A stretch of DNA of 64,000 nt from Lysobacter sp. TY2-98 (GTDB taxonomy: Bacteria > Pseudomonadota > Gammaproteobacteria > Xanthomonadales > Xanthomonadaceae). Both the position numbers and the translations under genes were made by a program. The stretch is taken from NCBI RefSeq assembly GCF_003367355.1, contig NZ_CP031413.1:558001-622000 (forward strand). The letters run 5' to 3'. The notes beneath the pieces were generated by a model. It saw nothing but the letters and a program-made list of their open reading frames with translations. It was not told the origin of the DNA and ran no database searches. Of this stretch, positions 19,122 through 63,731 are shown in pieces; position 1 is the stretch's first letter, and each line of letters starts with the position of its first letter.

Positions 19122-19685
19122 CTAGCCGATCCCGCGGACCAACGCCCAGATGCCCAATGCCGCGAACACGGCGGCCGCGGTGAGGCGCGCGGCCTTCAGC
19201 GGCAGGCGATCGGCGAAGCGCGCGCCGAGCAGCACCACCGGCACGTTCGCCAACAGCATGCCGAGCGTCGTGCCCGTCACCACCGGCACGAAATCGTGGA
19301 AACGCGCGGCAAGCAGGACGGTGGCCACCTGCGTCTTGTCGCCGATCTCGGCGAGGAAAAAGGCGATCGTGGTCGCCGCCAGCGCGCCGTACCTGGAGAG
19401 CCTGTCGTCGCCCTCGTCGAGCGTGTCCGGCTTGAGCGTCCACAGGGCGACTGCGATGAAGCTGCCGGCGACGATCCAGCGCAGCACGTCGGGCGTCAGC
19501 AGTGTCGACAGCCAGTCGCCCAGCGCGGCGGCGAGCGCGTGATTCAGGACGGTCGCGATGACGATGCCGGCGACGATCGGCCACGGGCGCCGGTAGCGCG
19601 CGGCAAGCATGAGGGCGAGGAGCTGCGTCTTGTCGCCGATTTCGGCGAGCGCGACCGTACCGGTCGAAACGAGGAGTGCGTTCAA
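19122..19685 (-). CDS. GDT1/UPF0016 (TMEM165-type) Mn2+ exporter
   Basis: The 187-residue membrane protein has two copies of the defining motif: ALAEIGDKTQLLALMLAARYR near residue 11 and FLAEIGDKTQVATVLLAARF in the second half. Each repeat has about three helices, as in the family of Ca2+/Mn2+ transporters; bacterial members export Mn2+. TTG 19685 is chosen as start because it gives the family N-terminus (LNALLVSTGTVALAEIGDKTQ) and normal length. A longer reading frame would run through the riboswitch aptamer. Manganese control is directly supported by the yybP-ykoY element upstream. Confidence 0.93.
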   Translation of the reverse strand: MNALLVSTGTVALAEIGDKTQLLALMLAARYRRPWPIVAGIVIATVLNHALAAALGDWLSTLLTPDVLRWIVAGSFIAVALWTLKPDTLDEGDDRLSRYGALAATTIAFFLAEIGDKTQVATVLLAARFHDFVPVVTGTTLGMLLANVPVVLLGARFADRLPLKAARLTAAAVFAALGIWALVRGIG

Positions 19686-19749
19686 GGCGGGGTTCCGAAT
19701 GCGCCGGGCATGCACGAAGGCGAGGCACGGCCCGGCAGGACGCGCATCG

Positions 19750-19860
19750 CCTTCGGTCTTGCCCCGGATCGCTGGGCGATCCTCCGTACGCCATGGCCGA
19801 CGGGCCAAGTGTGTTGACGTACGGGCCGTCGAAGCGACGGCGGACTACTCCCCGAGAGGA
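19750..19860 (-). promoter_or_regulatory. yybP-ykoY manganese riboswitch
   Basis: On the minus strand the leader contains the conserved aptamer blocks in order: TCTCGGGGAGTAG, then GTCAACACACTTGG, then GGGGCAAGACCGAAGG. A variable stem (ATCGC...GCGAT region) and the GCCGTC/GACGGC hairpin lie between them. The outer helix pairs CCTCTCGG with CCGAAGG around a bulge. This class binds Mn2+ and turns on exporters. The start codon is 65 nt downstream and no U-tract terminator was seen between, so control is probably translational or through alternative pairing. Confidence 0.93.
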
Positions 19861-19866
19861 AGCCGC

Positions 19867-19872
19867 ATTGTA
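19867..19872 (-). promoter_or_regulatory. Probable -10 box of the Mn2+ exporter transcript
   Basis: TACAAT on the minus strand lies 7 nt before the first base of the riboswitch outer helix, as expected for a promoter that starts the aptamer. No clear -35 box. Confidence 0.5.
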
Positions 19873-62531: not shown

Positions 62532-62631
62532 CCATCCATCGAGACCGGCGGAGGGACAGGCCCTTTGATGCCGGGGCAACCAGCACGCGAGTGCCAGGTG
62601 CCAATTCCTGCGGCTCCCGCCGAAAGATGGT
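62532..62631 (+). promoter_or_regulatory. SAM-I (S-box) riboswitch upstream of metX
   Basis: The conserved core blocks are present in order: ATCGAGACCGGCGGAGGGAC, AGGCCCTTTGATGCCGG, GGCAACC, a variable hairpin CACGCGAGTG, GGTGCCAATTCC and the closing GAAAGATGG. The P1 helix pairs CCATC (62536-62540) with GATGG (62626-62630). SAM binding is expected to shut off metX-metB. No U-tract terminator lies between the aptamer and ATG 62703, so control is probably translational. A hairpin CCCTG/CAGGG (62642-62660) may be part of the switch. Confidence 0.93.
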
Positions 62632-62702
62632 CTAGCGGATTCCCTGTCTGAGCGGCAGGGCGTCGCAGGCTCGATGGCCCCGTTTCCCGCCGGAGCCCCG
62701 TC

Positions 62703-63731
62703 ATGAGCCTCGTTTCCGCCCTCTCTACTGCCGACGCCGCGTTCGTGGCCGTCGAATCCGAAGCCGAATCCCTGCTGCCGGCGGCCCGTCGCGGCGAGTT
62801 CGATGCCGCGCTCGCGTTGCGTCATGCCGGCCCGCGCCGCGTGAAGCTGCGCTACGAGGTCGTCGGTGATCTCTCGCAGCCGGTGGTGTTCGTCGCCGGC
62901 GGCATCTCGGCGCGTCGTCATGTCACCGCCAACAGCGCCGACCCATCGCGTGGCTGGTGGGACACACAGGTCGGCACGGATCGCGCCATCGATCCGACCG
63001 CGCGTTGCATCGTGTCGTTCGACTGGATCGGCGCCGACGGCGCCCTCGACGCGCCCATCGATCCCGCCGACCAGGCCGACGCGATCGTCGCGCTCCTCGA
63101 TCACCTGCGCATCCGTCGCCTGCATGCGTTCGTCGGCAGCTCGTACGGCGCGATGGTCGGTCTGCAGCTGGCGGCGAAGCATCCGTCGCGCGTGCAGCGT
63201 CTGGTCGCGATCAGCGGCGTGCATCGCGCGCATCCGTATTCGAGTGCGTGGCGCGCGTTGCAGCGTCGTGCCGTGCAGTTGGGCGCGCTGCAGTGCGATG
63301 GTGTGGACGGCCTGGTGCTGGCGCGCCAGCTCGCGCTGCTGAGCTATCGCACGCCGGAGGAATTCGAGGAGCGCTTCGGCGCGGCGCAGGTGGTCGACGG
63401 TCGCGTGCACGTTCCGGCCGAGGACTACCTCGACCACGCCGGCCAGAGCTATGCGGCGCGCACGCCGGTCAGTGCGTTCCTGCGGCTTTCGGAGTCGATC
63501 GACCTGCAGGATGTCGCGCCGGAAACCATCGTCACGCCCGTCACGCTGGTCGCGATCGAACAGGATCGCCTGGTTCCCCTCGCCGATGCTTACGCACTGG
63601 CGCAGCGCCTGCGTGGCGAGACGCGCCTGCGCGTACTGCGCTCGCGCTATGGCCATGACGCGTTCCTCAAGGAGCACGAGGCGATCGCCGCGATCCTGGA
63701 CGAAGCGCTGGCCACGGAGGTGGCGGCATGA
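62703..63731 (+). CDS. metX: Homoserine O-acyltransferase MetX
   Basis: The 342-residue alpha/beta-hydrolase enzyme acylates homoserine, the first step of methionine synthesis. The nucleophile Ser is in AFVGSSYGAMVGLQL (GxSxG-like), followed by catalytic Asp (VTLVAIEQDRLVPL) and His (RYGHDAFLKEH). FVAGGISARRH and FDWIGADGAL are typical of the Xanthomonas-type enzyme, which in that genus is reported to use succinyl-CoA; that choice is not visible here. Expression is under the S-box riboswitch, and the stop overlaps the metB start as ATGA. Confidence 0.93.
   Translation: MSLVSALSTADAAFVAVESEAESLLPAARRGEFDAALALRHAGPRRVKLRYEVVGDLSQPVVFVAGGISARRHVTANSADPSRGWWDTQVGTDRAIDPTARCIVSFDWIGADGALDAPIDPADQADAIVALLDHLRIRRLHAFVGSSYGAMVGLQLAAKHPSRVQRLVAISGVHRAHPYSSAWRALQRRAVQLGALQCDGVDGLVLARQLALLSYRTPEEFEERFGAAQVVDGRVHVPAEDYLDHAGQSYAARTPVSAFLRLSESIDLQDVAPETIVTPVTLVAIEQDRLVPLADAYALAQRLRGETRLRVLRSRYGHDAFLKEHEAIAAILDEALATEVAA

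Follow-up and report, generated by a model that had tools for sequence, protein, structure and literature searches.

A manganese riboswitch leader of the sole GDT1-family gene in Lysobacter sp. TY2-98, with a TTG start and probable manganese-induced translation

In the genome of Lysobacter sp. TY2-98, a 64,000-nt stretch (the window) holds a gene of the GDT1/UPF0016 family that had been predicted, on the minus strand, to lie behind an Mn2+ riboswitch and to start with TTG. The locus raises the questions of where translation begins, in which direction the leader would act on it, and how far manganese can be regarded as the substrate of the encoded exporter. That this riboswitch is paired with UPF0016/GDT1 genes has already been published as near-universal in bacteria (PMC7380456), and the same review on GDT1 gives the number of bacterial UPF0016 genes under a yybP-ykoY riboswitch as 328 of the 333 that were screened. 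The family-specific expression platform and the exchange of exporters within a bacterial family may be new; no paper on either was found in the literature searched, the coverage of which was incomplete. We consider it probable that the window carries the Mn2+ riboswitch leader of a sole GDT1-family gene for a putative Mn2+ exporter, that this gene starts at TTG 19685, and that its translation would be switched on by Mn2+. The features discussed below are collected in Table 1.

Aptamer, gene, and start codon

The original prediction had named a scan with the yybP-ykoY model as its check, and an Rfam covariance-model search returned an RF00080 (yybP-ykoY, Mn2+) match at 19859-19766 (-) that covers the whole model (1-177) with 51.2 bits (E 1.1e-10), about 6 bits above the gathering score of 45 bits. 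The three aptamer blocks that had been called intact (GGGGAGTAG, GTCAACACACTTGG, and GCAAGACC) are all exact on the minus strand, as are the class-defining motifs L1 GGGGAGUAG, L3 GUCAACAnACUUGG, and 3' GCAAGACC. Because the model ends short of the conserved GCAAGACC, the originally proposed interval of 19750-19860 fits the aptamer better than the Rfam match does. From GCAAGACC to the GDT1 start there are about 70 nt, and the aptamer thus lies in the 5' leader of a putative Mn2+ homeostasis gene. It is the sole RF00080 match in the 3.16-Mb genome, and it is retained at the same-genus loci L154 and L155. Across the order Xanthomonadales the element is common, since 159 of 299 genomes have a match. 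Judged from sequence, an intact and ordinary Mn2+ riboswitch ahead of the GDT1 gene is confirmed.

In all 28 GDT1 leaders of the family, a TACAAT-like hexamer precedes the L1 motif by 19-28 nt, and this conserved position of the -10 box would place the transcript start at about 19860, just before the aptamer. A full two-box sigma-70 site was not found at the leader by a generic scan. The assignment of the gene to GDT1/UPF0016 was upheld by a profile search, in which its product has two PF01169 domains (E 3.3e-45), and by two E-x-G-D-K-T repeats, AEIGDKT occurring twice. The gene at 19685-19122 (-) is the only GDT1 gene in the genome, a genome search for MntP found no gene, and two TerC-family and two Nramp-family genes are located elsewhere. 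The next gene downstream on the same strand encodes a nucleoside permease (19039-17759 (-), TIGR00889 above cut-off).

Table 1. Positions of leader and gene features in the window
Feature	Position	Strand	Basis
Probable -10 box, TACAAT	19867..19872	(-)	Conserved in GDT1 leaders
Mn2+ (yybP-ykoY) riboswitch aptamer	19755..19859	(-)	RF00080 match and conserved blocks
P1.1 switch helix, 5' strand (TCTCGG)	19852..19857	(-)	Potential pairing, with one mismatch, to CCGAAGG 19756-19750; P1.1 pairing in relatives
L1 block GGGGAGTAG	19853-19845	(-)	Exact in sequence
L3 core GTCAACACACTTGG	19818-19805	(-)	Exact in sequence
Aptamer 3' strand GCAAGACC	19762-19755	(-)	Just past RF00080 model end; kept in relatives
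Strand a CGAAGGCGA, shared by P1.1 (3' side) and hairpin A (5' arm)	19747..19755	(-)	Pairs perfectly over 9 bp with 19723-19715
Strand b (GCCGGGC), 5' arm of hairpin B, within loop of A	19730..19736	(-)	Covariation in relatives
Strand a' TCGCCTTCG, 3' arm of hairpin A	19715..19723	(-)	Covariation in relatives
GTG, in-frame alternative start, rejected	19713..19715	(-)	No Shine-Dalgarno sequence; no start codon there in L155
Strand b' (GCCCGGC), 3' arm of hairpin B, adjoins Shine-Dalgarno sequence	19703..19709	(-)	Covariation in relatives
Shine-Dalgarno sequence CGGAA, 7 nt before TTG	19693..19697	(-)	Sequence; CGGA/CCGGAG in same place in relatives
GDT1/UPF0016 predicted cation exporter gene, TTG start 19685, 187 aa	19122..19685	(-)	PF01169 domains; start column in relatives

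The longest open reading frame in the GDT1 frame opens at TTG 19808, which falls within the aptamer, as had been claimed. The further claim that the riboswitch fixes the start at TTG 19685 was right about the start itself and went too far about the reason: two in-frame starts, GTG 19715 and TTG 19685, remain on the 3' side of the aptamer. The riboswitch thus limits the candidates to these two, and it is the relatives that decide between them. In L155 (same-genus genome G356, 96.8% identical protein) an ATG occupies the exact column of TTG 19685, and in L154 (same-genus genome G314, 85.6% identical protein) a TTG does. The same column holds TTG in seven further family members (L121, L124, L125, L133, L147, L149, and L158), most of them with a GGAG-type Shine-Dalgarno (SD) sequence in the usual position and without a better start, and ATG in L128, L129, and L151. 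Other relatives start with an ATG 3-27 nt further upstream, so that the N-terminus varies within the family. The SD of the window, with its 7-nt spacer, is weak. These comparisons support an unusual TTG at 19685 as the predicted start of GDT1 translation, which sets the N-terminus there, whereas annotation by the longest open reading frame would run the gene into the regulatory RNA.

Two other readings bear on these assignments. With a score just 6 bits over the cut-off, the RF00080 match might be taken for a degenerate relic or a chance match, but this is extremely improbable given its E value, the intactness of every core block, and its retention both in L154 and L155 and in more than half (159/299) of the genomes of the order. 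Translation might also begin at GTG 19715, which is in frame and 3' of the aptamer and would yield a protein 10 residues longer. We regard this as very unlikely: the codon lacks an SD and overlaps the last base of hairpin A, the 97%-identical L155 has no start codon in that column but an ATG in the TTG 19685 column, and the conserved protein begins at 19685.

Leader hairpins and the likely direction of the switch

From GCAAGACC to the start codon, four strands follow one another in the leaders of the family in the order a-b-a'-b', and hairpin B extends into the SD in most relatives. When 20 leaders were aligned, 90.5% of the cells in hairpins A and B were paired, compared with only 38-49% in a control with the partner slid by 1-3 columns, a comparison biased somewhat toward the unslid structure because the alignment columns were picked from the fold of one relative. 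The two-sided changes are for this reason the safer evidence, with 13 such pairs in A and B versus 6.0 in shuffles and none of 500 shuffles reaching 13. In addition, the cognate a:a' duplex was stronger than the mean non-cognate duplex in 27 of 28 species. For the region downstream of the aptamer in the window itself, the gain in folding over shuffles is slight (z -1.3), and the case for the platform therefore comes from the relatives.

P1.1 is the switch helix of the yybP-ykoY class (PMC6754395), and since strand a doubles as its 3' side, a full hairpin A and a full P1.1 are mutually exclusive. Most relatives keep CCUCCGG, which has one mismatch with strand a and a full match with the SD, and in most of them the P1.1 5' strand together with L1 is complementary to the SD over 8 bp (CUCCGGGG:CCCCGGAG). 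The window lacks this 8-bp complement; near its SD it has only a CGGGG:CCCCG pairing, and in its minimum-energy fold L1 pairs with the codons just after the start. Despite strong pairing in most relatives, covariation between the P1.1 5' strand and the SD is small (cognate -15.2 versus non-cognate -14.7 kcal/mol), and for that reason this is a pairing that we infer.

A generic scan found no intrinsic-terminator-like site between the aptamer and the GDT1 gene, which, together with conserved helices that reach the SD, points to control of translation, with Mn2+ most likely turning it ON. When Mn2+ is high, P1.1 would be kept closed by the docked aptamer, so that the P1.1 5' strand and L1 would be unable to pair with the ribosome-binding region; with this region left free, translation would rise and Mn2+ would be pumped out. 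At low Mn2+, P1.1 would open and hairpin A would take up strand a, leaving the P1.1 5' strand and L1 free; these (and/or strand b via hairpin B) would cover the ribosome-binding site. The pairings suggest, without proving, that the SD is covered by the freed P1.1 5' strand at low Mn2+ and uncovered once Mn2+ has closed P1.1.

Energy models of 28 leaders gave about the same cost of opening the SD with and without P1.1 (means of 4.1 and 4.0-4.3 kcal/mol), and in the Mn-like state of most leaders the SD tended to fold into hairpin B, a placement that by itself would correspond to a switch that is OFF with Mn. The same riboswitch could accordingly work with the opposite sign, Mn2+ closing P1.1 and blocking hairpin A so that strand b forms B over the SD, a reading also supported by the way in which the covarying helices a:a' and b:b' are interleaved. 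However, secondary-structure models leave out docking and pseudoknots, the same interleaved layout is seen by eye before the mntP exporters of the family, and the published cases found are all Mn-ON (PMC11647493, PMC13274385); an exporter repressed while its substrate is in excess would also make little sense. With the E. coli mntP switch ON with Mn (PMC11647493) and Vibrio mneA induced by Mn (PMC13274385, PMC7380456), we favor the ON direction and judge the opposite sign distinctly unlikely. Control could instead be mainly transcriptional, through Rho-dependent termination in the leader that Mn2+ relieves, with translation following, much as the E. coli mntP leader is Rho-terminated and partly relieved by Mn2+ (PMC11647493). 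This is unlikely here, where no intrinsic-terminator-like site was seen and the conserved helices that reach the SD fit control of translation.

The preferred reading, translation induced by Mn2+, can be set beside known systems. The mneA genes of Vibrio cholerae and V. parahaemolyticus share with the window the aptamer class, the transporter family, and a sole GDT1 gene under the switch, and mneA of V. parahaemolyticus is Mn-induced (PMC13274385); the window differs in a platform sequence specific to its bacterial family, in its TTG start, and in being known from sequence alone. In the translational mntP riboswitch of E. coli, an Mn2+ aptamer governs access to the ribosome-binding site of an Mn2+ exporter (PMC11647493), as proposed for the window, although MntP is unrelated to GDT1. 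The Xanthomonas oryzae yybP-ykoY riboswitch (yebN/mntP) belongs to the same class, with the P1.1 switch helix and a crystal structure (PMC6754395), and the mntP leaders of the family have by eye an interleaved layout similar to that of the window. It controls mntP, however, not GDT1, and was called transcriptional by its authors (PMC6754395).

GDT1, MntP, and manganese as the substrate

Of 119 Xanthomonadaceae genomes, 84 have GDT1 and 34 have MntP. Only 3 genomes hold both genes, and 4 hold neither, three of these 4 being less than 90% complete. The mutual exclusivity is strong (Fisher p 7e-21, ignoring phylogeny), and both alternatives are found within four genera, including that of the window (GDT1 in G000, G314, and G356; MntP in G339). 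Many MntP genes of the family carry an RF00080 riboswitch too. Within one family, a genome thus nearly always has one of GDT1 and MntP in place of the other, and in many cases the riboswitch class ahead of them is the same. The pattern is consistent with one of two unrelated Mn2+ exporters taking over the function of the other, and it provides circumstantial evidence at genome scale that GDT1 has the same role in bacteria as MntP.

The original prediction held that the riboswitch supports manganese as the real substrate of this transporter. As regulatory evidence this was fair, and the gene-content pattern, which is independent and circumstantial, strengthens it; transport itself is demonstrated by neither. 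Because human TMEM165 is in the same protein family, evidence on the substrate from natural replacement has some wider value. We also entertain, tentatively and as a doubtful possibility, that a single translational platform is common to the Mn2+ riboswitches of the family: the P1.1 5' strand would serve also as the anti-Shine-Dalgarno sequence and the interleaved hairpins A and B would tune it, the module being kept while MntP and GDT1 are exchanged.

In the stretches examined, no RF00080 match accompanies MntP in G339, G290, and G342 (loci L156, from the same-genus genome G339, L163, and L164) or GDT1 in G075, G054, and G160 (loci L165, L166, and L167). Upstream of the gene, L165 has a Fur/Mur-box-like palindrome, ATGATAATCATTCGCATTT, as does L040; in L165 it suggests that protein-based control may have taken over. 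Fur/Mur-box-like sequences also occur upstream of the -10 box in some riboswitch-bearing leaders (L169, with ATGAGAATAATTATCATTT, L117, L034, and L037); none was seen in the window leader.

Elsewhere in the window, an SAH riboswitch (RF01057, 57.5 bits, 11149-11057 (-)) lies directly upstream of an S-adenosylhomocysteinase-like gene (ahcY, 11021-9591), the usual pairing. A SAM-I riboswitch (RF00162, 76.1 bits, 62533-62633 (+)) is upstream of an alpha/beta-hydrolase gene at 62703-63731, which, judged by eye only, resembles a homoserine acyltransferase (MetX-like).
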